NCBI RefSeq assembly: GCF_003851125.1
Contig: NZ_BGOW01000001.1
Location: 62,001 to 126,000 of the forward strand
Length of the DNA stretch: 64,000 bases
Direction of reading: 5' to 3'
Source of the DNA: Sulfuriferula multivorans
Lineage (GTDB): Bacteria > Pseudomonadota > Gammaproteobacteria > Burkholderiales > Sulfuriferulaceae
This document shows, one piece after another, positions 18,205-31,125 of this stretch; the first letter of the stretch is position 1; every line of letters starts with the position of its first letter. The notes under the pieces are model-generated. The model ran no database searches, was not told where the DNA came from, and saw only the letters and a program-made list of their open reading frames with translations. A program made the translations under genes and the position numbers.

Positions 18205-19186
18205 CAGGCCGTCCTGATAAGCGGAAATAAATCCGTCGCAGCCACTTTGCAGCTGATGCAGGCAGCAATGAATAAATCATGATAATTCCCGCCAGGCGCA
18301 GCCGCCAACCCTTACCATATGCGAACATGGACAAAAGATATTCACCCTGTTTCATGCCGTGGGATTTGAATTTTAATGATATCTTGAGCAACAAGACAAA
18401 CTGCCTGACAAAACTTGGCTTATCTTTTGTCAGGAAATCCATACCATCCTGCAGAAATTTTTTCCGCAGAGAATCTGATTGAAAGAAACGGCTCGTTCTA
18501 AACCAGCTATTGTGCCACTCCAAATCCCCGAAATAATAGCTGGGTTCGTTACTTTGTTTATAAGTCATTATCTGATTCGGAATTGTATATAAAATCAGAC
18601 TGTCTCGACCAAGCCCAAGTATCACAGGCACGAGATGGGGAAACGCATCGCCTATATTCATATAGGCTTGCGGCAAGTACTTGATAAAAATGGCACGCCT
18701 GACAATAGTATTGGTTATTTGACTGATACTCGCAAAGAACATTTTTTCCGTGCCAGCAAGCTCAACGGCAGAAATGCTCCTGCCTTTGGATTCGGCGGAC
18801 GCAAGCCAACCCAATCTTATTAAATCCGCCTCACCTTTCTCGATGATGGCAATCAGATCTTCAATATTTTCCAGATGCCACTCATCATCATCACCCAATA
18901 TCCAGGAATATTCTGAAGACGAGATTTCAATCGCACGCAGAATATTGGCATTGCCGCCAATATTGTACCGGTTGCGATGATATGAAAGATTTGGCCACTG
19001 CACCTGAGCAGCAGCGACGACTGATGCCGTGTCGTCCGTCGAGGCATTGTCCAGAACATGCAGTTTGATGCCAGTCAGCCCGGCATCGAGAAAGGCGGCC
19101 AATGTACGCTGCAAATCAGCCGAACGATTGTAGGTAATCAGTACCGGTTCAAGTTTCTGGTTATCCCAAGTGATGTGGCTTTTCAC
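18170..19186 (-). CDS. Glycosyltransferase family 2
   Basis: 338 residues. P-V-L-I-T-Y-N-R-S-A-D-L-Q-R-T-L begins the GT-A fold; L-D-N-A-S-T-D-D-T and I-L-G-D-D-D-E provide nucleotide- and metal-binding acids. A-Y-M-N-I-G-D-A-F-P-H is in the acceptor half. It overlaps the stop of the cyclase-like gene by four bases, so it is the first transferase downstream of the aldolase-SDR-cyclase trio and a candidate for attaching that product (inference). Similar in layout to the GT2 at 15725. Confidence 0.87.
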   Translation of the reverse strand: MKSHITWDNQKLEPVLITYNRSADLQRTLAAFLDAGLTGIKLHVLDNASTDDTASVVAAAQVQWPNLSYHRNRYNIGGNANILRAIEISSSEYSWILGDDDEWHLENIEDLIAIIEKGEADLIRLGWLASAESKGRSISAVELAGTEKMFFASISQITNTIVRRAIFIKYLPQAYMNIGDAFPHLVPVILGLGRDSLILYTIPNQIMTYKQSNEPSYYFGDLEWHNSWFRTSRFFQSDSLRKKFLQDGMDFLTKDKPSFVRQFVLLLKISLKFKSHGMKQGEYLLSMFAYGKGWRLRLAGIIMIYSLLPASAAKWLRRIYFRLSGRPDEGLHTDRSRL

Positions 19187-20262
19187 GCCACACCAATAAG
19201 TTTCTGCAGTTCATGATTCGCCGCGTCCAGTTCAGCATAAGTCAAATCGTCAATCTTGATCATCTCAAAACCATTGATCAACATGATAAGAACCAAACCA
19301 TCGCCTGTCCGTTTTTTATCCATCTTCATTGCGGCAAACACGGCATCGGTATCGAGTTGGCCCTTGTCTGGTTGGGCCGTAAGCGCCGGTTTCAGCGCCT
19401 GTTGGTGTAGCTGTTCGAAAAGAGCAACGCTCATCAAGCCGCGATTTTTGGCAACGATATTGGCAAACATCATGCCAATGACCACAGCCTGCCCATGCGG
19501 GATGGCAAACGCTGAAGTGGATTCAACTGCATGACCGAAGCAATGGCCAAAATTGAGCAGGTTGCGCTTGCCGGTGTCGAACTCGTCGTCCTGCATATAA
19601 CCGAGTTTAACGGCGAGGGATTTTTCGATGGCGGAAAGCAATGCCGCGGCATTTTCGCGGCCTGCCAGTGCCGGCAGATTCAACATTAACTCGCGGGCGA
19701 GCTGCTCGCCACCCATCAGGTGCAGCTTGACGACTTCGCCCAATCCGCTGAAATAATCCTCGTTCTTTAAGGTCCTGGTAAACCCGGGGCTGAGAAATAT
19801 CCGGTTCGGCGGAAAGAATGTGCCGACGAGATTTTTGTAACTCTTGTAGTTAAGGGAAGTCTTGCTGCCTATGCAACTGTCAGCCTGTGCCAACAGGGTT
19901 GTCGGAACAAAAATCCAGTTAATGCCGCGATACAGGGTTGAAGCGGCGAAACCGGTAATATCCTGTACGATCCCGCCGCCTATCGATATCAATGTCATGT
20001 TGCGCTTGGCCGAACGCGACATCAGCGCATCGTAAACCTCCATGACCGTATAAAGATTCTTGCGATCTTCCTCGATCGGCAACACCATGACCAGTTCAGG
20101 ATCAAGCCGGGAAAACAGGGAGTCGCGATAGAGCTCCCACACATTGCTATCGATGACGTAGAAACGGTTGGGAATGTCTTCGAATGCCGTTAGAAAATCA
20201 AACGAACCGGAGAAATGCACCTCATAGTCACGAATTGCGGAATGAACCCTGATTACCTGCAT
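19183..20262 (-). CDS. 3-dehydroquinate-synthase-like sugar phosphate cyclase
   Basis: 359 residues, AroB-fold. NAD site I-S-I-G-G-G-I-V-Q-D-I-T-G-F (93-105) and V-P-T-T-L-L-A-Q-A-D-S (119-129) are clear. Metal ligands correspond to E176 (G-L-G-E-V-V-K), H240 (L-N-F-G-H) and H256 (I-P-H-G-Q), with catalytic-base candidate H244. True DHQ synthases read H-G-E-A-V-A at the last site; here Glu is Gln258. The family turns 3-deoxy-heptulosonate phosphate or related sugar phosphates into carbocycles. Placed in a glycan operon after an aldolase and an SDR, it probably makes a specialised cyclitol or quinate-like residue rather than serving the shikimate pathway. Confidence 0.82.
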   Translation of the reverse strand: MQVIRVHSAIRDYEVHFSGSFDFLTAFEDIPNRFYVIDSNVWELYRDSLFSRLDPELVMVLPIEEDRKNLYTVMEVYDALMSRSAKRNMTLISIGGGIVQDITGFAASTLYRGINWIFVPTTLLAQADSCIGSKTSLNYKSYKNLVGTFFPPNRIFLSPGFTRTLKNEDYFSGLGEVVKLHLMGGEQLARELMLNLPALAGRENAAALLSAIEKSLAVKLGYMQDDEFDTGKRNLLNFGHCFGHAVESTSAFAIPHGQAVVIGMMFANIVAKNRGLMSVALFEQLHQQALKPALTAQPDKGQLDTDAVFAAMKMDKKRTGDGLVLIMLINGFEMIKIDDLTYAELDAANHELQKLIGVA

Positions 20263-20921
20263 ACATAGCCCCCATCAACTACCAATACCTGGCCAGTCAT
20301 ATAAGAATTTTTTCCGGAACATAAAAAGGCCACCATCTCGGCTATCTCTGCCGGTTCGGCCAAACGCTGCAGCGGTATAGTGTCGCTGATGGCCTGGATC
20401 TGCTCCGCAGAATTATTCTGACGCGTCAACTCGGTATTGACATAACCGGGGGCGATGGCATTGACCAGTATGCCATGTGGCCCCAGCTCCAGCGCCAACG
20501 TACGCGTCACTCCATTGATGGCAGACTTGCTCGCCGCATAAGCCATCCGGCGCTCCTTCGAGACGATGCTCCAGATCGAGCTGAGGTTGACGATTCTTCC
20601 AAATCGGTTTGCCTTCATGCGCTCAGCAACCAGCCGGGTTAACTGCAACGGCGCAACCAGGTTAATCTGCAGTGTCGCATTTAACGTAGCGGAATCGAGT
20701 TCATCAATGCCGGCCAGAAAATTGATGCCGGCATTGTTGACCAGAATATCGATGGGGCCTTCTATAGTGTCCACATAACGCTCGATGGACTCGGGGACAG
20801 CCAAATCCATTTCTGTACGTGAAGGCGTTAGCACGTGTACGCCTGCGCGAGCCAATGCCGCAGCGATAGCGGCGCCAATACCGCGAGAGGCGCCCGTGAC
20901 CAGGGCGACGCGATTTTTCAC
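20253..20921 (-). CDS. Classical short-chain dehydrogenase/reductase
   Basis: 222 residues. T-G-A-S-R-G-I-G (9-16) cofactor loop, N-N-A-G (62-65), catalytic Ser near 114, Y128 and K132 (Y-A-A-S-K): a complete classical SDR site, with C-terminal V-D-G-G-Y. An Arg after the first glycines (A-S-R-G-I-G) leans towards NADP(H). It overlaps the aldolase by four bases and the cyclase by ten, so the three are translationally coupled. It would reduce or oxidise a keto group on the aldolase or cyclase product; substrate unknown. Confidence 0.88.
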   Translation of the reverse strand: MKNRVALVTGASRGIGAAIAAALARAGVHVLTPSRTEMDLAVPESIERYVDTIEGPIDILVNNAGINFLAGIDELDSATLNATLQINLVAPLQLTRLVAERMKANRFGRIVNLSSIWSIVSKERRMAYAASKSAINGVTRTLALELGPHGILVNAIAPGYVNTELTRQNNSAEQIQAISDTIPLQRLAEPAEIAEMVAFLCSGKNSYMTGQVLVVDGGYVCR

Positions 20922-21733
20922 TTCACAATCCCGTATTTCTCCATGGCGCTCTTGTAACGAGCCTCCAGCATTTCAATGCGCTGAGCATCCTCAGCGAAAA
21001 TCATTCCATAAAAGTCGCGCTTGTTCTTCAGCCACAGCAATTCAAAATACACGGCTTTCAGAATACCCTTCTCGGTGCCTGCATCCAGCGCTTGCGGACA
21101 GCTAAAAATAACCTTGCGTGTTTCATAATAGCTCAACGCCCCAGTCGGCAATCTACGCAGGAAGGGCAGCGCATCGGCCGAAACGCCGCCACCCACAGCC
21201 GCAATCAAGCCGTGAGCGTGGGCTTTGGCGACAATGTTACTGGTCAGGTCAAAAACGGCATCACTATTAATGTCATCGCGGCCCAGGCCGGCAGAGCCAC
21301 TCAAGTCAACACGCCCCACGACAATGCCATTCAGCTTCCTGATGCTGGGGATAGCCAGCATTTCATCAAAGTTCTGGCAAGTGGTCACCGTTTCAATATT
21401 AATCGAGAAAGACATTTGCTCGATTTCATCCTGAGGAAAGGCGAGGTCAATCGCAGCCAGGAATTTCTTCAATGCGTAAGGCGTTTCCACCATGGGCGCG
21501 ACAATGCGCGAGACACCCAGCACCCGCGCCTCATACATATCGCGGATGGCTTCGCAACCTCCGATCTTGAGCGTCAGCCCCAGACCCGCAGCACTAATCA
21601 CCTCCTTCAGGCGCATGGCTTCTTCGAGTCGCGTTCCCTCTGCTTCGAATTCGGCCTTCACGCCAACTACGTGATGGTTTTCCCTGAGGTCGGTTAGTAC
21701 TTCAACCATTTCACGCTCAATTTTGTTCAACAT
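20918..21733 (-). CDS. HpcH/HpaI-type aldolase family protein
   Basis: 271 residues, class II pyruvate-dependent aldolase/citrate-lyase superfamily. Recognised by A-P-M-V-E-T-P-Y (79-86), I-N-I-E-T (111-115) and V-V-G-R-V-D-L-S-G-S-A-G (138-149), the barrel loops that carry the metal-binding acids. Such enzymes join pyruvate (or release it) with an aldehyde to give 4-hydroxy-2-oxo acids. Directly coupled to an SDR and an AroB-like cyclase, it may supply a 3-deoxy-ulosonate for ring closure (inference). An AAGGAG site precedes the ATG, and the 283-base AT-rich gap upstream makes it the probable first gene of the seven-gene run. Confidence 0.78.
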   Translation of the reverse strand: MLNKIEREMVEVLTDLRENHHVVGVKAEFEAEGTRLEEAMRLKEVISAAGLGLTLKIGGCEAIRDMYEARVLGVSRIVAPMVETPYALKKFLAAIDLAFPQDEIEQMSFSINIETVTTCQNFDEMLAIPSIRKLNGIVVGRVDLSGSAGLGRDDINSDAVFDLTSNIVAKAHAHGLIAAVGGGVSADALPFLRRLPTGALSYYETRKVIFSCPQALDAGTEKGILKAVYFELLWLKNKRDFYGMIFAEDAQRIEMLEARYKSAMEKYGIVK

Positions 21734-22016
21734 AAACTCCTTAATTAGTTAATAAACTTGCTTAAATATGTTGTTAAATATTCAGAAATAAATCTCCTAG
21801 CATGTAAAACTGCCATTTCATAAACACTCAGGAATAAACATTGCAAATAACTCACAATATACCCATTCGCATTATCAGGACATCCGGAACATACGGCTAG
21901 AATATTTCACAAGATCGGAAACTCAAATAAATAATTAGCTATCTCAAACACTAATTCTGATATTTCATGATCTGTAAATATTAGTGGGGAGCGTGTCTAT
22001 GTTAATTATAATATAT
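21734..22016. other. AT-rich intergenic region with possible promoter
   Basis: 283 bases, strikingly AT-rich, between the gtr-type transferase stop and the aldolase start. On the minus strand TTGAGT and TATTCT with a 16-base spacer (near 21930-21900) could be a promoter for the aldolase operon; nothing stronger is visible. No ORF with coding character is seen. Confidence 0.35.
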
Positions 22017-24104
22017 TCAATTCCCATTAATATTAACGTCTTCTCTCAAATATATATTTACACTATTCCAATCTCTAGGTAAATCACGAGCCACACCCAA
22101 CTCATCTGAAACCGCCATCAAATCCTGATAATTACCTCGCAATGTCAGCATATCCCCGGCTTTTAATTTAAAACTTGGTGTAGGTTGATATATTAATGCG
22201 TTACGAATAACCTCCACTACTCTTACTTTGTTTTTAAGTGCTCCGATTGTTTGAACAGCGTTATCTAGATCTTCGCCAATAATGCTGACATTTTGGATTA
22301 AAACATTCTGAGTTGCCTTCGGCATAATTTCTAATTTCGAGATATTAAGTTTATGCGTAGGTAATGCAACGCTTCTGACTAGACGATATTTACCTTCGAA
22401 AACCCATTGATCTAATTGATTTCTAAAATCCTCTTGTGGCAAATTCTCGTTTTGCTTCAATATTCTATTTACGGCGAATGCGACAGGGGATGGTTCCAAA
22501 GCAACTATCACACGAGGTGGATGCTTTCTTAGTGCCCGCAATTCGTTTTCCATTTGTTTTGACGAAACAACATCAAACCATTGGACGACCTCTCTGAAGG
22601 GAGGGATTTTTTTATGTAGTGCATAAAAAATAGGCAAATTATAGAAATAGACATCCGATTGTGATAAAGAGTAACGATCCACATATAGCTTAATCATGTT
22701 AAATACATCTCTGTATTTAACATCAACATATATTCCGGCTAAGTCCGGGTAATTTGTTTGATACCTAGCCGAAAATACTGATCCCTGTGTATTTTCCCAC
22801 CAAGAGTATGGAACCAATAATTTACCAATTGCTATTCTCGGTAAAATTGCAAGAAAAAACAGGCTCGCTAGTAAGAAATATTTCTGCTGCGGAAATCGCT
22901 GGATTCTATTGAGAATCCACGCAACAGTGAACGCTATAGGAATTTGCATACCGTTAAAATCAAAGCTGGCAGTATTAGTATTACTGTAAGCCAGCGCAAT
23001 AAGCGGAAAAACAATCCCTACATATTTAATATTAATTTCAGAAGTAGTAGCATCGTCACGCAACCTTCGATAAATCTTGAAACTCAGAACAATTAAAAGC
23101 GCGATAGAAACCGGAATTATTAGCTCTCGTAGCAAATGGTATAGGCTATTTGTTATAGCAATGCCGATAATAAGCAGCACACTGGTGGCGAATAAAGCAC
23201 GCTGCGTAAGTTGTTTATTTAACAGCACATGGATAGAATTCATCCATTTTTTTTGCCAATCTGATTTAAAATAAAATAAATATCTGAAGAAAAAATACAT
23301 TCCTGCAATAAGCATTGATTTTTTTAAAATATTTCTATTTGTTGGGTCAATAAAAAAACGACCCAACACAGTTACTAGATTACCCTTAGCATCATTTGAG
23401 AATAATAAATTTTGCCAATCTGCAAATGATATTATTGGCAACATGGCTAGGACAGCAATTATCACGCCAAACGTCAGCCCTAACAACTTTGCTAACAACC
23501 ATTCCCCTTTTTGCAGTACAAAGCTCAGCATAAGTGCGGCATATAACAATACGCCAACATTCTGCTTGAGGAAAATCATGAGGCATACCAACATACCTAA
23601 CAGCAATGAACCACCAAAATTCTGTATTTTTGTTAATTTGGCATTCCCAGCTATCCAGCTATGCAGTAGCAAAGTTAACGAAACAATTAACAACTGATAG
23701 GTATGGTAATCTTTCGCGATAAATTGCGGTTCGGAAAACAAAAGAAAGCTCGCCACAATTACTGATATTGCGGATGCTTTTGCGGAAAAAAATTGCTCCA
23801 AAAATAACTGAAGACACAATATGGCCAACAAATAAACGGCCACGCCAAAAAGGCGCAAATAAAAAAACGAGTCTCCAAATATATCAAGCAAATACCCATT
23901 GATTATCGTAAACAAAGGGGTAAACGCCAAATCAAAGTCATGATATGGCTTTAGCCCCAAGTTATACAAATAACCGTATGTTTCCCACCATCCTTCACTT
24001 AGAGGGAAATAGCGATTGAATATAAGTAAGTTGAAAACACCAATAACGAATAGTGCAGACAATCGATACCGTAAATTTATCGGCATGCGTTCTAAAATTG
24101 GCAT
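22017..24104 (-). CDS. GT-C type membrane glycosyltransferase with TrkA-C-like C-terminal domain
   Basis: 695 residues. About 11-13 hydrophobic segments fill residues 15-430. The first periplasmic loop, S-E-G-W-W-E-T-Y-G-Y-L-Y-N-L followed by P-Y-H-D-F-D-L, has the acidic residues expected in GT39/GT83-like polyprenyl-phosphate-sugar transferases. A soluble domain follows. The last part (about 606-670) reads like TrkA-C/RCK_C: V-R-V-V-E-V-I-R-N, then F-K-L-K-A-G-D-M-L-T-L-R-G and a closing helix. With GtrA and GtrB encoded just upstream it would be the third, glycan-modifying component. DNA is clearly more AT-rich than the flanks, suggesting recent acquisition. Confidence 0.8.
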   Translation of the reverse strand: MPILERMPINLRYRLSALFVIGVFNLLIFNRYFPLSEGWWETYGYLYNLGLKPYHDFDLAFTPLFTIINGYLLDIFGDSFFYLRLFGVAVYLLAILCLQLFLEQFFSAKASAISVIVASFLLFSEPQFIAKDYHTYQLLIVSLTLLLHSWIAGNAKLTKIQNFGGSLLLGMLVCLMIFLKQNVGVLLYAALMLSFVLQKGEWLLAKLLGLTFGVIIAVLAMLPIISFADWQNLLFSNDAKGNLVTVLGRFFIDPTNRNILKKSMLIAGMYFFFRYLFYFKSDWQKKWMNSIHVLLNKQLTQRALFATSVLLIIGIAITNSLYHLLRELIIPVSIALLIVLSFKIYRRLRDDATTSEINIKYVGIVFPLIALAYSNTNTASFDFNGMQIPIAFTVAWILNRIQRFPQQKYFLLASLFFLAILPRIAIGKLLVPYSWWENTQGSVFSARYQTNYPDLAGIYVDVKYRDVFNMIKLYVDRYSLSQSDVYFYNLPIFYALHKKIPPFREVVQWFDVVSSKQMENELRALRKHPPRVIVALEPSPVAFAVNRILKQNENLPQEDFRNQLDQWVFEGKYRLVRSVALPTHKLNISKLEIMPKATQNVLIQNVSIIGEDLDNAVQTIGALKNKVRVVEVIRNALIYQPTPSFKLKAGDMLTLRGNYQDLMAVSDELGVARDLPRDWNSVNIYLREDVNINGN

Positions 24105-24544
24105 TGCTTATCTCTCTTTAGAATCTTAGAGGACTCTGTTGTATTAAGGGCTTGCTCAGGTGTTTTGAATGAAAAATGTTTATGCCCGAGGTAACTAGCA
24201 ATAACTGTGATGACCACAAACCATGCTTGCCCTACTATCGGACGGGTCCCCAGTAACTCGACCATAGCTGGCAAAGCGACCAGATTGATTGCCAGCACGC
24301 CGAGATAGACCGTATTGAATTTGCCAAATTCATGCAGCCAGCGCCCTTTGGTTTTGAAAACCAGAAACTTGTATGCCAGGTAGGCATTGGTAACAGAGAT
24401 CACATGGGAAATAACCAGAACAATCAGATAGTGGACCCGGTCTTTGAGCAACATCAGCAACAACGCAAACAAGATGTAGCCAAACGCCGTGTTATATCCA
24501 CCTACCAGCAAATAGCGAATTTTTTCATTTTTCAGGAGACCCAT
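24092..24544 (-). CDS. gtrA: GtrA-like lipid-linked sugar flippase
   Basis: 150 residues with four predicted membrane helices: R-Y-L-L-V-G-G-Y-N-T-A-F-G-Y in the first, V-I-S-V-T-N-A-Y-L-A-Y-K-F-L-V-F between helices 2 and 3, and Y-L-G-H-K-H-F-S-F near the end, the usual GtrA signature. GtrA proteins are thought to flip undecaprenyl-phosphate-sugar. It overlaps gtrB by 20 bases and the membrane transferase by 13. Length is normal; about 20 extra polar residues follow the last helix. Confidence 0.9.
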   Translation of the reverse strand: MGLLKNEKIRYLLVGGYNTAFGYILFALLLMLLKDRVHYLIVLVISHVISVTNAYLAYKFLVFKTKGRWLHEFGKFNTVYLGVLAINLVALPAMVELLGTRPIVGQAWFVVITVIASYLGHKHFSFKTPEQALNTTESSKILKRDKQCQF

Positions 24545-25499
24545 TTTTTAGAGCGCCTCCCTCTATCGTCAGCCCATGGGTTTGCGACACGATATAGTTG
24601 GGTCTCTGCTTAACTTCTTCGTATATCAATCCTACATACTCACTCACAATACCAAGCATTGTAAACAGAATGCCAAACATCAACAGCATGACAGCCATGA
24701 TCGTTCCAAAGCCCGCGAATGGAACCCCCCAGATGATTGCTTTTATAATGATCACCGCTAGCAATATGAATGAAAAGACAGAAACGGCGAGGCCCGTTAG
24801 GGTGATTAATTTTAGTGGTATGTAGGTGTGGGCAAAAATTCCTTTCAATGCCAGTTCAATGACCTTGAAGGTATGCGCGCCGGACACGCCAGCAAAGCGT
24901 TCTGCCCTTTCATGTTTAATGCCTATGGATTTATACCCAACCCAGGCAAAAATACCGCGCAGAAATCGATTCCGTTCATGTATTGAGTTGATTGTTTCAT
25001 AGACTTTTCTGTCCACCAGGCGGAAGTCGCTGACATTCTTTGGAACCATGCCTCCGGTTAGCCCATTTGCCACCTTATAGAACAGCTGAGAGTTAAATCT
25101 CCTAATCGCGTTGGTTCCATTGCGCTTGGTGACAATGCCATAGACGTTCTCGTAGCCTTCTTCCCATTTTTTGATGAATTCGGTGATAAGTTCGGGCGGG
25201 TCTTGCAGATCAGCGGTCATGATCACCGCGGCATCCCCACTGGCGTAATTCAATCCAGCCGTTAGCCCTCCATCCATTCGAAAATTTCTCGCCAATTGCA
25301 GGACTTTGAATCGATTATCTTGCTTATGAACCGCCAGCAATTTCTCGTAGGTATTATCCAAGGATCCGTTCTCAACGATGATGGCTTCGAAATCGTATGC
25401 AGGGTTGGCGGCAAAAACGCCTTGCAAGCGCCTTGCCAGTTCGTCGACGTTATCTTGCTCATTGTAGGCAGGAATAACAATGGAAATCAGTTTCTTCAT
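24525..25499 (-). CDS. gtrB: GtrB-like undecaprenyl-phosphate glycosyltransferase (GT2, DPM1-like)
   Basis: 324 residues from the ATG at 25499 (M-K-K-L-I-S-I-V-I-P-A-Y-N-E); the 23 codons upstream are not typical. A-D-L-Q-D-P-P is the metal-binding motif of DPM1/GtrB enzymes, N-F-R-M-D-G-G-L-T-A-G supports it, and two membrane helices (about 232-300) follow R-A-E-R-F-A-G-V-S-G. It makes undecaprenyl-phosphate-hexose for the modification module. Normal length. Confidence 0.92.
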   Translation of the reverse strand: MKKLISIVIPAYNEQDNVDELARRLQGVFAANPAYDFEAIIVENGSLDNTYEKLLAVHKQDNRFKVLQLARNFRMDGGLTAGLNYASGDAAVIMTADLQDPPELITEFIKKWEEGYENVYGIVTKRNGTNAIRRFNSQLFYKVANGLTGGMVPKNVSDFRLVDRKVYETINSIHERNRFLRGIFAWVGYKSIGIKHERAERFAGVSGAHTFKVIELALKGIFAHTYIPLKLITLTGLAVSVFSFILLAVIIIKAIIWGVPFAGFGTIMAVMLLMFGILFTMLGIVSEYVGLIYEEVKQRPNYIVSQTHGLTIEGGALKNGSPEK

Positions 25500-25510
25500 T
25501 GAGTCGGCAA

Positions 25511-26023
25511 TCAAGCAAATAAGTAGGGACGATACATATGATGAACCGGAATCAGATTTTTGGGGCACGTCTTATGCCATTGCCATTGGTCTTTTGCCGG
25601 GGGGACATGCGCCGCAAGCGTTTCAGCAAGAGGTGAAGCTAGGCGGCACGCAAAGAGCAGCGAAACAAAATGACCACGAATGGTGTTTGTGGGGTGTATG
25701 ACCTGATTGATGGCGATCGGCGCGGAGTCATGTACGACGCTGGCACCCAGCTCCTGCCGCGCTACGGCATGGATGCGGTCGCTGAAGGTTTCCCGGAAAC
25801 GGATAATGCCACCGGGTACATGCCAACCGGCATCATAGTGACCATCGTCCCGCCATGTCAGCAGGACGCCGTTGGCCTCATCCCTGATAAGCAGATCCAC
25901 ATTAACCAGCGGGGTAATCTGGCTGGCATAAAGAAACACCTCCTCCGGCAAGCCTTTGGTTGGGTCTCCGGTGAGAGCTTGCAATTCCTGCACCAGGTTG
26001 CCGAGGCGGTTAGCCGTCATCAT
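25511..26023 (-). CDS. Nudix hydrolase, GDP-mannose mannosyl hydrolase-like
   Basis: 170 residues. W-H-V-P-G-G-I-I-R-F-R-E starts a Nudix box that keeps G-x5-E but has A-V-A-R-Q-E-L-G where canonical boxes have RExxEExG; the same altered box is known in GDP-mannose mannosyl hydrolases. P-L-V-N-V-D-L-L-I and A-G-W-H-V-P-G-G also match. It would hydrolyse a GDP- or other NDP-sugar, tuning nucleotide-sugar pools. Its ATG overlaps a copied 3' end of the thiamine-diphosphate gene (ATGA at 26020-26023). Confidence 0.82.
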   Translation of the reverse strand: MMTANRLGNLVQELQALTGDPTKGLPEEVFLYASQITPLVNVDLLIRDEANGVLLTWRDDGHYDAGWHVPGGIIRFRETFSDRIHAVARQELGASVVHDSAPIAINQVIHPTNTIRGHFVSLLFACRLASPLAETLAAHVPPAKDQWQWHKTCPKNLIPVHHMYRPYLFA

Positions 26024-26233: not shown

Positions 26234-26779
26234 TCATTTGTTTTTCTTCTTTATCGTGTGTTTGAATTTCAAAACAGCGAAGTTCAGTTCGATTGAGGTT
26301 TCTGTGTCGCTCGCTTGCAAGTCGTCATCGAAGATTTCGGCGATTAGCTCGCCGCTTTTTTGCATGAGTGATTTTTGAACGGCTTTGTCTTGAACTGTTG
26401 ATAACTCTTTTATGCTTCTTGATAGCTCTCTGATTTTTGAGAAGGTCTCAACTATCGCGATGGTCGCCTGGGTTGCTTGTGGGCTTTTGAGTATTGTGGC
26501 AAGCATATAGAGCCCTTTTTCCGTAAATGCACTTGGGAGCTTTACTTTACCTCCTTTAATTGAAGTCGAAAATTTCGACTTCAACGAATCCCACTCGTTT
26601 TTATCAAGCTCCATGATGTATCCATCAGGAAATTTATCAGGGTTATTTTTCACCGCCTCATTAACTCTTTTTGTCTCAACCCCGTAAATCACTGCCACAT
26701 CAGCATCGAGCAAAACTTTTTTGCCTCTTATCTCGATGATCAACTCTTTTAGGTTCTCAAATATCACCATATCCGTCAT
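26234..26779 (-). CDS. ORF6N-domain protein
   Basis: 181 residues. The N-terminal I-I-E-I-R-G-K-K-V-L-L-D-A-D-V-A-V-I-Y-G and V-N-E-A-V-K-N-N-P-D-K-F-P form an ORF6N domain, a KilA-N-associated DNA-binding module of phages and mobile elements. Helical, Ser/Gln/Lys-rich C-terminus. It is the only complete gene of the inserted segment between direct repeats A and B. Its stop overlaps the ATG of a 14-codon ORF which in turn overlaps the vapC fragment, a compact chain typical of TA-like cassettes. Function unknown. Confidence 0.85.
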   Translation of the reverse strand: MTDMVIFENLKELIIEIRGKKVLLDADVAVIYGVETKRVNEAVKNNPDKFPDGYIMELDKNEWDSLKSKFSTSIKGGKVKLPSAFTEKGLYMLATILKSPQATQATIAIVETFSKIRELSRSIKELSTVQDKAVQKSLMQKSGELIAEIFDDDLQASDTETSIELNFAVLKFKHTIKKKNK

Positions 26780-26934: not shown

Positions 26935-27041
26935 GTCATCATTTGCTGCCATCCCATGGTTCGATGAGCATGTTTTCCATGAATTCGGTTCTGTCCAGGA
27001 ATGGGTACATGTCTTCCAGCGGTTTAGACACCATGGTGCCA
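26935..27041. repeat. Imperfect direct repeat B (true 3' end of the thiamine-enzyme gene)
   Basis: Partner of repeat A. Copy B sits at the real stop of the thiamine-diphosphate gene and still keeps ATGATGAC, the first bases of the Nudix gene, before the sequence diverges. This shows the two genes once overlapped directly. Confidence 0.8.
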
Positions 27042-28756
27042 TCCGGCTTGATTTCGGATGCCAGTTTTGGATACAGCAGCTGATCGGAGGCCATCATGAT
27101 CTCGCACAGGGCTGGCCCTGGCACTGCTAGGGTCTGACGAATTTTTTCCAGCAATTCGTCATGGTTCGCGGCCCGGTTGGATGGAATGCCGTAGGCGCCA
27201 CAGATTTTCTGCATATCCGGAAAGGACACCCCGCTGCTCGGATCAGCCGCGATATAACCTCCAGGGAAATAGGCATCCTGGGTAAGGCGAATGGAGGTGT
27301 AGCCGTTGTTATTGAGCAAAAAAATCTTGATGGGCAGTTTGTGGTGGGCAATGGTCTGCAGTTCCTGCAGGTTCATCTGGATGCTGCCATCGCCGGCGAT
27401 GCAAATCACCCGCTTGCGGTCGTTGGCGAAGCACGCACCTATGGCGGCGGGTAGATCGTAGCCCATGGAGGCACAGCCGGAATTGGTGAACAGACGCTGC
27501 CCCTTTTTCAGTTTGACCGCCTGAAAAGTACAGGTGTTTGCCGCACCATTGGCAAGGACGATTACGTCACTGGGCGCCAACTCATCCGAGAGGGTGTCAA
27601 CGAAATGGAAGGAGTTTACATCGTCCTTCTGTGCGCGCCATTCCGGGGTCACGCTCGGGTAACGGCGACGCCGTTCGCGGCACCATTCAATCCAGCTTTC
27701 CTTACGCGGCAAAGGCTTGCCACGCAGTTGCCGCGCCATTTCTTCCAGTAGCACTTTGGCATCGCAGTGGACGGGCATGTCGGGGAAAATCGTGGGCTTC
27801 TTGAGCTCGGCGGGGTCGATGTCAACGACAATTTTGTACGCGGCACGAGCAAATGCCTTGAACAGATAGGAAACGGTTCTGACCCCAAGCCGCACCCCGA
27901 TGGTCAGCAGCGCGTCCGCGTTCTGGATGATGAAGTTGCTGGATCGGTCGCCGGTGACGCTGGGACGGCCGAAGAACAGCGGGTGGTCGGAATGAATAAC
28001 GTCATTGCCGCCCATGGCAGTTTGCACGGGTACGCCGAGCAGGTCGATCACTTCATGAAAGAGGGCCATGGCTCCAGCGAGACGGATGCCATTGCCGGCC
28101 AGAAACACAGGACGCTCGGCAGCGCGAAGGCGCTCGATGATGGTCGCCGCCTGCGCCTGGACGGTCTCTGGGTCGAAACATATCCGGTCTTCAGCCAGAC
28201 TGTAGGGTAACAACTCATCCTCATCAATCAGGGCCGCCTGGACGTCCAGGGGAATATCCAGCCAAACCGGGCCGGGCCGCCCATTGCGGGCGAGATAAAG
28301 CGCTTTTTCGAAGTGATAGCGAACGCTTTTGGGGTCGCGCACCATCACGGCGTATTTGGTAATCGATTCGACAATGGCGATGATATTGGCTTCCTGGTCG
28401 CCGAGCTGGCGCAGCGGCAATCCCGTACTCTCGACTGTCGTACCATATTTTATCTGGCCGGAAATGAACATTCCGGGAATGGAGTCGAGCCATAGCCCCA
28501 ATACACCGGTGAGGGTGTTGGTGCCGCCCGGGCCGCTGGTGACGACGGCTACGCCCAGGTTGCCTGTTATGCGAGCGTAGCCTTCAACGGCGATCGCGCA
28601 AGCCTGTTCATGGTGGTTGCAAACGTATTCCAGGTTCTTGTTTTTGCCGATGGCGTCATTGAGGTGCATGGCGCCGCCGCCGGAGATCATGAACACATGG
28701 CGGACACCCGCTTCGGCGATGCGTTTTGCCAGATAATCGGATACTCTGATTTTCAC
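26939..28756 (-). CDS. Thiamine-diphosphate enzyme, acetolactate-synthase fold (YerE-like)
   Basis: 605 residues from a GTG at 28756 that overlaps the upstream stop (GTGA). Catalytic Glu50 lies in N-H-H-E-Q-A; the diphosphate site G-D-G-S starts near 455 and ends with N-N about 27 residues later, the standard TPP motif; S-G-P-G-G-T-N is also present. The enzyme follows CDP-4-keto-3,6-dideoxyhexose genes. In Yersinia the flavin- and TPP-dependent YerE adds an acetyl unit from pyruvate to the C4 ketone of such a sugar, making yersiniose. That is the most economical role here, rather than acetolactate synthesis (inference). Confidence 0.8.
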   Translation of the reverse strand: MKIRVSDYLAKRIAEAGVRHVFMISGGGAMHLNDAIGKNKNLEYVCNHHEQACAIAVEGYARITGNLGVAVVTSGPGGTNTLTGVLGLWLDSIPGMFISGQIKYGTTVESTGLPLRQLGDQEANIIAIVESITKYAVMVRDPKSVRYHFEKALYLARNGRPGPVWLDIPLDVQAALIDEDELLPYSLAEDRICFDPETVQAQAATIIERLRAAERPVFLAGNGIRLAGAMALFHEVIDLLGVPVQTAMGGNDVIHSDHPLFFGRPSVTGDRSSNFIIQNADALLTIGVRLGVRTVSYLFKAFARAAYKIVVDIDPAELKKPTIFPDMPVHCDAKVLLEEMARQLRGKPLPRKESWIEWCRERRRRYPSVTPEWRAQKDDVNSFHFVDTLSDELAPSDVIVLANGAANTCTFQAVKLKKGQRLFTNSGCASMGYDLPAAIGACFANDRKRVICIAGDGSIQMNLQELQTIAHHKLPIKIFLLNNNGYTSIRLTQDAYFPGGYIAADPSSGVSFPDMQKICGAYGIPSNRAANHDELLEKIRQTLAVPGPALCEIMMASDQLLYPKLASEIKPDGTMVSKPLEDMYPFLDRTEFMENMLIEPWDGSK

Positions 28757-29796
28757 GAATGTTGCTCCCAACCGTGCCAACGGGCAGTTTTGATGATGGC
28801 TTGTTCCAGGGTGACGCTTTGTGTGAGGCCGAGTTCAGTTTCGGCACGCTGTGCGGAAGGCACATACCGTTTGGGCAGGGCTCCCGGCTGAGCTTGCTGC
28901 ATGATGCGCATGCCGCTGCCGCCAAGCGTTGTGTTGACGAGCGCGGCAAGCTCCGCAATGCTGATAGCCTCGCCCGCCCCTACGTTGTAGGGGCGGGCGG
29001 TCTGGCCACGTAGCAGGATGGTCCATAACCACAAAATCAGATCAGCCGCATACAGGTAAGAACGGTATGGCGTGCCGTCACCACTGATTTGGATCGTGTT
29101 TTTAGCCATGGCATCGCGGATGAAGTTGCCAATTGCAAAGTGGCTATCGATTGGCAAATAGGGGCCGACAAACGCAAAACAGCGCGCCAGTTTGGCCTCG
29201 ATACTGTACTGCCTGGCATATAAGCTGCACAGCAATTCCGCAACGCGCTTACCCTCTGCATAGGCAGATCCGGCATTGGTGCAATCCGGGCCGTTGAAGT
29301 TGGATTCGGACCAGTGTGATATGTGCGGGGGCTGGTCGCCGTATACCGCACCCGAACTGAGGAAGAGAAAATTTTTTGCCCCGGATTGCACGGCAAAATC
29401 AAGGGTTCGCCGTGTTCCCCCAACAATCGTGTCAAACATGCGGATAGGGTCTTCGGCATTCAGTTTGGCACTGGCATCGGTGGCGCCATGGATCACGAAC
29501 GAGAACTTCCCTTCCGGAAAAGCAAAGGTTCTTATGTCTCCTGTCAACAACGTGATGCTGGGGTGGGACGCCACATGGGGCACCTTTTCGGCGAATGCCT
29601 CGGCGTTGCGGGTCAGCACTACAGCACTCATGCCCAGGTTCAGACGATCATTCAACCAGACGAAGCTTTCCAGCAACCAGGTGCCGATAAACCCCGTGCC
29701 GCCCGTTATGAAAAATCGCGCGCCCTTGATATCTGGCCAAAGCGCACGCCCTCGATCGAGGATGTTATTCAGGTCTTCTGCCAGTTGGTTCCGCAC
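28753..29796 (-). CDS. Extended SDR acting on a CDP-sugar (YerF/RfbJ-like reductase or epimerase)
   Basis: 347 residues. F-F-I-T-G-G-T-G-F-I-G binds NAD(P); catalytic Ser in L-F-L-S-S-G-A-V-Y-G and Y-A-E-G-K as Y-x-x-x-K. The SDR fold is preceded by about 25 helical residues (L-A-E-D-L-N-N-I-L-D-R-G), as in some RfbJ-like CDP-abequose synthases. Placed 6 bases after rfbH and coupled to the TPP gene, it should reduce either the 4-keto group or the acetyl branch of the CDP-sugar. Which one cannot be told from sequence alone. Confidence 0.82.
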   Translation of the reverse strand: MRNQLAEDLNNILDRGRALWPDIKGARFFITGGTGFIGTWLLESFVWLNDRLNLGMSAVVLTRNAEAFAEKVPHVASHPSITLLTGDIRTFAFPEGKFSFVIHGATDASAKLNAEDPIRMFDTIVGGTRRTLDFAVQSGAKNFLFLSSGAVYGDQPPHISHWSESNFNGPDCTNAGSAYAEGKRVAELLCSLYARQYSIEAKLARCFAFVGPYLPIDSHFAIGNFIRDAMAKNTIQISGDGTPYRSYLYAADLILWLWTILLRGQTARPYNVGAGEAISIAELAALVNTTLGGSGMRIMQQAQPGALPKRYVPSAQRAETELGLTQSVTLEQAIIKTARWHGWEQHS

Positions 29797-29802
29797 TGTG
29801 CA

Positions 29803-31125
29803 TTACCACCCGCCCAACCCGAAGAAAGTTTCCAGTTTCTCACCCACATAATCGAGCATGGTTTCGCTAAGCCCGGGATAGACGCCAAGCCAGAAAGTCT
29901 GGTTCATCACGATATCGGTATTCTTCAACTCGCCACTAATGCGATAGGCACGGTCCTGGAAATACGGTTGCCGTGTCAGGTTGCCGGCGAACAACAGGCG
30001 GGTACCCACTTTGTTCTGGTCCAGGTATTTGAGCAGATCCACTCGCGCCACTTGTGACTCCTCGCGCAAGGTGATGGGGAAGCCAAACCAGGACGGCTCG
30101 CTGTTCGGTGTCGCTTCGGGCAGGATCAGGAAGTCTTCCATTCCGGCCAAGCGGTTTTTCAGAAACTCGAAATTCTGTTTGCGGGACTCGATGAACCCGG
30201 GCAACCGGTCCATTTGCGCCAGCGCACAGGCGGCCTGCATATCGGTAATCTTGAGGTTGTAGCCCAAGTGAGAATAGGTGTACTTATGATCGTAACCGAA
30301 AGGCAATGATCCAAGTTGCCAGCCAAAGCGCTTGCTGCAGGTGTTGTCCTTGCCCGGCTCGCAGTAGCAATCTCTCCCCCAGTCACGGAAAGATTCGATG
30401 ATGGTTTTTAATTGACCGTCATTGGTAAATACCATGCCACCCTCACCCATGGTGATATGGTGCGCCGGGTAGAAGCTGCAAGTAGCAATATGGCCAAAGG
30501 TGCCGACAAGTTTGCCATTGTAAGTTGAACCGAGCGCATCGCAGCAGTCTTCTACAACCCAGAGGTTGTATTTCCTGGCCACTGCCATGACCGCATCCAG
30601 ATCGAAGGGGTTGCCAAGAGTATGGGCAATCATGATGGCGCGAGTTTTGTCCGAGACGGCAGCTTCGATAAGCGCAGGGTCGATATTGTAAGTCGGGATA
30701 TGCACATCGACAAAGACCGGCACCATGCCATTCTGAATAATCGGGTTGACCGTGGTGGGAAAGCCCGCTGCTACAGCGATAATCTCATCACCCGGTTTCA
30801 ATGCACGATCGCCCAGTTTTGGTGAGGTTAGCGCTGTGAAGGCGAGCAGATTGGCCGATGAGCCTGAGTTGGTGGTCAGCGCGTGCTTGACCCCGAGAAA
30901 TTCGGCGAAACGTTGCTCGAACGCTGTATTAAAGCGCCCGGTGGTAAGCCAGCCATCCAGCGAGGCTTCCACCATATTGCTGATTTCCGCAGCACCGATA
31001 ACCTTGCCTGAAGGGGGAACAACACTTGTGCCGGGCTGGAAAGGCTTGGGTGCATGTGCAAGCTGGGCGTACTGTTCGACAAGTGCGAGGATTTGTTTGC
31101 GGAGTTCAGCTTCTGTCATTTCCAT
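29803..31125 (-). CDS. rfbH: CDP-6-deoxy-4-hexulose 3-dehydrase (E1)
   Basis: 440 residues, aminotransferase fold using PMP and a [2Fe-2S] cluster to remove the C3 hydroxyl of CDP-4-keto-6-deoxyglucose. The Schiff-base lysine position is His ([13 protein letters not shown], 219-230), the diagnostic change of this enzyme. Cluster cysteines fit C195-x57-C253-x-C255-x7-C263 exactly. It needs an E3 ferredoxin-type reductase (DdhD/AscD), which is not in this window. Middle of the rfbF-G-H operon; 70 bases separate it from rfbG. Confidence 0.95.

Follow-up and report, generated by a model that had tools for sequence, protein, structure and literature searches.

The question raised by this locus is why a membrane glycosyltransferase that appears to belong to a Gtr-type surface-glycan modification set should carry, near its C-terminus, an RCK_C (TrkA-C) domain, since such domains are usually located in the cytoplasm and are generally treated as ligand sensors for ion transport. 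The window analysed here is a 64,000-nucleotide stretch of contig NZ_BGOW01000001.1 from Sulfuriferula multivorans, and positions are counted from its first letter. The gene lies on the minus strand at 22017-24104, where an ORF of 695 amino acids with an ATG start matches exactly the position and length given in a first-pass annotation made from the sequence alone. On the same strand it is accompanied by gtrA (24092-24544; PF04138, 65.1 bits), which encodes a probable flippase for a lipid-linked sugar, and by gtrB (24525-25568; PF00535, 95.9 bits; GtrB-like PHROG 841, 266 bits), a family 2 glycosyltransferase gene for loading of the lipid carrier, whose true start may be an in-frame ATG near 25499. 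Profiles and coordinates thus place a complete Gtr-type set, consisting of gtrA, gtrB and a specific transferase gene, together in the window. The first 13 bases of the GT-C-like gene are shared with the end of gtrA and the first 20 of gtrA with the end of gtrB, and therefore the three genes look co-translated. There is a single copy of the GT-C-like gene in the genome, and promoter and terminator scans at the locus gave results at about chance level.

The G+C content of the GT-C-like gene is 0.366 and that of the gap downstream of it (21734-22016) is 0.297, compared with 0.559 for the window and 0.44-0.46 for gtrA and gtrB. Judged from these values, the GT-C-like gene was possibly acquired separately.

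The membrane part of the protein comprises residues 11-427 (22824-24074, minus strand). It is drawn with 13 helices and a cytoplasmic N-terminus in a hand-drawn model that was based on hydropathy and an uncalibrated topology program, and the helix count is not settled. A first large loop at residues 30-79 (23868-24017, minus strand), presumed to be periplasmic and catalytic, contains the conserved acidic residues E37, E41 and D56; its catalytic role is our assumption by analogy with GT-C enzymes in general. Residues 24-64 are the best conserved of five regions compared, with 76 and 80% identity to the two relatives that have a tail domain, and E41 is not kept in a more distant relative that lacks such a domain. 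The membrane part is followed by a soluble C-terminal domain (residues 428-580; 22365-22823, minus strand), which hydropathy, alignment and modelling delimit and which is presumed to be periplasmic. The PMT_2 profile reaches 22.4 bits on this protein, under its cut-off of 26.1. From the anatomy of many helices, a conserved acidic first loop and a soluble C-terminal domain, together with the gene neighbours, we infer that the protein is a GT-C-like transferase, and it probably adds a sugar to a cell-surface glycan. The first-pass annotation had likewise described a GT-C membrane glycosyltransferase beside gtrA and gtrB, and the GT-C-like anatomy and the PF04138 and PF00535 matches of the neighbours agree with that description.

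An RCK_C fold occupies about residues 597-673 (22086-22316, minus strand), as indicated by profile and structure models. In the whole protein, the TrkA_C profile (PF02080) aligns to residues 619-670 and scores 25.3 bits, slightly short of its cut-off of 27. The 97-residue tail alone scores over this cut-off (29.7 bits, E 5.9e-7), as does the same place when all six frames of the genome are scanned (29.6 bits). That scan found four TrkA_C matches in the genome, all over the cut-off, and the other three are located in a TrkA protein (two matches) and in a KefC-like protein, both named from their sequences. No TrkA_N match accompanies the domain in the window protein. Other sequence comparisons gave little. 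An NCBIfam model for Asp/Ala antiporters touches the tail with 20.4 bits, far below its cut-off of 546.95, and a profile-profile comparison with one KefC-like RCK_C domain was weak (probability 9.7 over 25 columns). Sequence searches of the PDB returned a single match for the whole protein (E 0.5), no chains at E<=1 for a four-row family profile, and six matches up to E 1 for the tail, none of which is named RCK.

Two AlphaFold2 models were compared with the PDB by Foldseek. The first was a full-length model built from three sequences, namely the window protein and its two relatives, and thus contained no transporter sequences. This model is poor overall (mean pLDDT 40.9), and among its longer stretches the tail fares best, with ten-residue means of 46-68 for residues 601-690. 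Its top nine matches are all RCK, TrkA or BusR entries, and the tenth is not. The best of these is 5f29_B (TMt 0.67); five of the nine are compact (rmsd 2.5-2.8). Because no E-value is better than 0.15 and the rmsd of the other four matches is above 15, the support from this model lies in the consistency of its matches.

The second model, of residues 579-695, was built from 14 sequences and is far more confident, with a mean pLDDT of 80.0 and ten-residue means of 84-97 over residues 599-668. It returned 562 PDB matches at E<=10, including 43 at E<=0.001. Among the 50 matches listed, 48 are titled RCK, MthK, TrkA, KtrA, GsuK, BusR or as related to potassium channels, and the remaining two (2bko and 2bkn) are titled as being of unknown function. 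Examples are 5f29_B (TMt 0.87) and 4ys2_A (rmsd 1.0), and the matches include an entry titled as a solved BusR RCK_C dimer (7b5u). This result is partly circular, because 11 of the 14 sequences were RCK_C domains of other proteins. A chance match to TrkA_C can nevertheless be rejected on the basis of the tail and genome-scan scores and the RCK fold matches of both models. Profile and predicted structures together indicate that the tail carries a true RCK_C fold. The earlier proposal of an RCK_C-like tail at about residues 606-670 is therefore upheld, and the comparison of an AlphaFold model with the TrkA_C fold, which had been suggested as a check, gave RCK proteins as the best matches of both models.

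A search for the same architecture had also been suggested, and a scan of genome contigs gave 10 pattern matches, two of which encode relatives that have a tail domain in the corresponding position. One is from a Coxiellaceae metagenome-assembled genome (locus L002) and the other from the gammaproteobacterial metagenome-assembled genome GWF2_41_13 (locus L003), and over nearly their full lengths they are 32 and 33% identical to the window protein, respectively. The tails of these two relatives are clear homologues of each other (55.5 bits). The L003 tail scores 26.3 bits with TrkA_C, slightly under the cut-off, and the L002 tail has no TrkA_C match at E<=1, so its fold is recognised only through homology to L003. 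In pairwise comparison, the window tail shows weak similarity to that of L002 (17.3 bits, E 0.043) and no significant similarity to that of L003 (E 43). The case for a common domain in the window protein and its relatives therefore comes from the RCK_C profile together with the position within the protein. The RCK_C fold, the gene run and the retention of a tail domain in relatives are all direct results of computation.

Both relatives are flanked by genes for proteins resembling GT87-family membrane transferases (L003, 1140-3736; L002, 6845-9046; PF09594, one gene tested per locus), and an additional family 2 transferase is encoded at L003 (325-1080). No gtrA was seen at L002 or L003 among the listed ORFs of at least 90 amino acids, part of which were scanned with profiles.

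The architecture that joins a GT-C-like protein to an RCK_C domain is rare in the genomes searched, the window gene, L002 and L003 being the three loci recovered. Matches were confined to the source genome in samples of 61 genomes (E<=1e-5), 300 genomes of its order (E<=1e-10) and 274 genomes of its class (E<=1e-10), to the L003 genome in a further sample of 274, and to the L002 genome in a sample of 11. Seven genomes of the L003 order yielded the L003 genome and one other, G859, which encodes a relative without the tail domain, and the same two were the only matches among 369 genomes. These samples overlap, and the strict E limits could hide distant members. Among 84 pattern matches in viral contigs there are no relatives, and since the phage and plasmid collections gave no protein match either, an origin from a phage or plasmid was set aside. 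The open literature searched yielded no description of an RCK_C or TrkA-C domain joined to a glycosyltransferase.

The G859 relative (loci L007 and L012) has 625 residues and is 23.7% identical to the window protein over 582 columns. It stops matching at profile position 584 and lacks the RCK_C domain, and its alignment passes directly to a strand resembling that found after this domain in the proteins that have it. That last strand (residues 681-686; 22047-22064, minus strand) lies beyond the RCK_C domain and appears, from the alignment and the low-confidence full-length model, to close the soluble domain. It is a strand in the full-length model and not in the domain-only model, as would be expected if its partner strand lies outside the domain. 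In a shuffle test the similarity of the strand gave P 0.028 with a three-row profile and 0.31, 0.03 and 0.17 with single rows, two of which are not significant. The argument for nesting is based on about 12 residues; alignment and model together are suggestive of an RCK_C domain that was inserted into the hairpin with which the soluble domain ends.

On which side of the membrane would this domain be found? Hydropathy shows no hydrophobic helix beyond residues 409-427. A simple home-made topology program, which was not calibrated on known proteins, preferred a periplasmic tail in eight of nine runs on the three tail-domain proteins (all three settings for the window protein and for L003, two of three for L002). 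This tail position was also the best for the three-protein average at all three settings and for the four-row average at two. A cytoplasmic tail was preferred for the L007 protein, which lacks the RCK_C domain, at all three settings, and at one setting each for L002 and the four-row average.

The individual solutions differ in their details. The top-ranked tail-outside solutions for L002, L003 and the averages contain 14 helices, place the N-terminus outside and count residues 59-76 as a helix; wherever the helices were printed, 12 of them follow residues 59-76. The solution for the window protein alone has 13 helices with the N-terminus inside, wherein 59-76 is counted and 259-279 is skipped. 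The N-terminus-outside solutions and the assignment of 59-76 as a helix conflict with GT-C enzymes, because in these the N-terminus is inside and the first loop outside. If 59-76 is instead treated as a non-crossing segment that is followed by 12 helices, the result is the 13-helix hand-drawn model with the tail outside. In this model, with the soluble tail left out, the density of lysine plus arginine is higher in the presumed cytoplasmic loops than in the presumed periplasmic loops for all four sequences (14/73 versus 7/115, 8/66 versus 11/116, 14/77 versus 9/115 and 18/70 versus 10/117), the difference being small for L002 (8/66 versus 11/116).

Mapped relatives point in the same direction. 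According to the available text of PMC5377068, ArnT has 13 helices and a C-terminus that cysteine labelling places in the periplasm. Similarly, the available text of PMC3259042 describes long periplasmic C-terminal ends for Shigella GtrI, GtrII, GtrV and GtrX, as well as a hypothesis that periplasmic C-terminal regions of Gtr proteins set serotype specificity, and it also reports that the C-terminal ends of GtrIV and GtrIc are cytoplasmic. Taken together, the topology runs, the GT-C anatomy and the mapping of ArnT and Gtr proteins make it quite probable that the tail is in the periplasm. An extracytoplasmic RCK_C domain would be unusual.

The first-pass annotation had envisaged a cytoplasmic ligand switch, in which a nucleotide or cyclic dinucleotide bound by the tail would turn the transferase on or off. 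The fold does resemble RCK domains that were solved with a ligand labelled 'cda' (5f29 and 4ys2), which we read as c-di-AMP, and a cytoplasmic tail is favoured by some topology runs and has precedents in GtrIV and GtrIc (PMC3259042, available text). However, most topology runs on the tail-domain proteins, the GT-C anatomy and the mapped relatives all point to the periplasm. In addition, there is no match to the diadenylate cyclase (c-di-AMP synthase) family in the source genome, whereas 11 of 14 control genomes have one. The c-di-AMP signature described in the available text of PMC10117811 is absent from all three tails, but this is a weak test because it is also absent from all 11 other RCK_C domains compared. 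A second signature is absent too. Thus, c-di-AMP is disfavoured as a ligand, and we regard a cytoplasmic switch as very unlikely. That annotation had also tied the fate of its proposal both to the side of the membrane and to the existence of relatives with this architecture, and here the outcome is mixed: topology speaks against the proposal, and such relatives do exist.

The pattern of conservation bears on the alternatives that accept a periplasmic location. Among the three tail-domain proteins the tail domain is 16, 26 and 32% identical, compared with 35-40% for the membrane part, 37-56% for the soluble domain and 76-88% for the first loop. The stretch with the last strand is similarly variable to the tail domain (23-54% over 13 columns). 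Perhaps the domain is a ligand switch on the periplasmic side, opening or closing the active site when it binds a small ligand such as an ion, a sugar or a lipid phosphate. A regulatory role is usual for RCK_C domains (PMC10117811, available text), and a tail domain has been kept in three diverged proteins. However, tail identities of 16-32% against 35-56% for the membrane and soluble parts are unlike a conserved binding pocket, and the literature searched, as far as its text was available, yielded no extracytoplasmic RCK_C switch. Such a switch is therefore judged to be improbable. A bolder possibility is that this would be the first RCK_C domain to function outside the cytoplasm, nested in a periplasmic domain, where it would respond to the glycan as it grows or to a ligand in the periplasm and so control the timing or the site of sugar addition; this idea is unlikely, but it is given slightly more credence.

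Another explanation is that the domain is a structural or nearly neutral insertion that was acquired once and at most stabilises the soluble domain, with no binding or switching role. The low conservation of the inserted domain is as expected from this explanation, and the G859 relative, located in a similar gene module, manages without it. However, a tail domain has been retained in proteins that are only 32-33% identical, even if the L002 fold is recognised only by way of L003. This explanation is not favoured, yet it deserves serious consideration.

We tentatively prefer, at a little under an even chance, the reading that the protein is a Gtr-type surface-glycan modification enzyme in which the RCK_C domain is an accessory periplasmic module rather than a cytoplasmic sensor of messengers. 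The low conservation of the tail domain relative to other parts of the protein fits an accessory part whose partner varies between species, for instance another copy of the enzyme or the acceptor glycan, more readily than it fits a switch for a fixed ligand, and thus favours such a module. In the proposed pathway, GtrB would load a sugar onto undecaprenyl phosphate, GtrA would carry the loaded sugar to the periplasmic side, and the GT-C-like protein would transfer it to a periplasmic glycan acceptor. RCK_C domains are able to dimerise. The RCK_C fold, putatively an insertion within the closing hairpin of the periplasmic C-terminal domain, might pair two copies of the enzyme, help to hold the acceptor glycan, or do both. 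We infer the activity, the membrane side, the nesting and the role alike.

Comparison with known systems underlines how unusual the combination is. ArnT resembles the window protein in its many helices, its two large periplasmic loops and its periplasmic C-terminal region, but no RCK_C domain is mentioned for it in the available text of PMC5377068. Shigella GtrI, GtrII, GtrV and GtrX each correspond to the third gene of a set consisting of gtrA, gtrB and a type-specific gtr, and have a periplasmic C-terminal end (PMC3259042, available text). Unlike them, the window protein has an RCK_C domain, and no phage match was found for its gene. TrkA, KtrA, MthK and BusR share the RCK_C fold and profile match (PF02080), whereas the window domain is part of a glycosyltransferase, is predicted to be periplasmic, lacks TrkA_N and lacks the c-di-AMP signature, the last being the weak test described above.

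RCK_C domains of transporters were also pulled out independently by the profile of the window family. When the four-row profile was run against 398 genomes of the phylum, five had matches, namely the source genome and, at E<=1e-4, four with transporters that were reached through their RCK_C domains. These transporters are AspT/YbjL-like and SLC13-like proteins, as judged from length and sequence. In contrast to the window protein, by our reading these carry the RCK_C domain mid-protein, between hydrophobic stretches. A periplasmic copy on a transferase would widen the role of the fold, and a match to TrkA_C need not mean that a second-messenger switch is present. The RCK_C tail also provides a compact and experimentally accessible way into the question of what sets specificity in Gtr-type enzymes.

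The genes around the GT-C-like gene (19183-21733, 24092-25568 and 26939-28780) encode a TPP enzyme, an HpcH/HpaI-type aldolase, a short-chain dehydrogenase/reductase (SDR), an AroB-like cyclase, GtrA and GtrB, and this module is shared with locus L012 of G859. The identities between the two versions are 51% for the TPP enzyme, 57% for the aldolase, 41% for the SDR, 35% for the cyclase, 30% for GtrB and 29% for GtrA, and 24% for the GT-C-like protein. The cyclase scores 399.8 bits with TIGR04425, a profile for AroB-like sugar phosphate cyclases with a cut-off of 400. The enzyme set points to the production and transfer of an uncommon sugar, which may be cyclised or branched. Bradyrhizose was considered as a product of the neighbouring genes and was dropped after no support was found in the available text of the literature. 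Near the module, an RfbH-type protein is encoded at 29803-31125 (NF011936, 773 bits), which we take to be a 3-dehydrase in 3,6-dideoxyhexose synthesis. Finally, a gene for an ORF6N-domain protein (26234-26779; PF10543, 104.5 bits) lies between the TPP enzyme gene and the nudix-like and gtrB genes, and is perhaps a mobile insertion.
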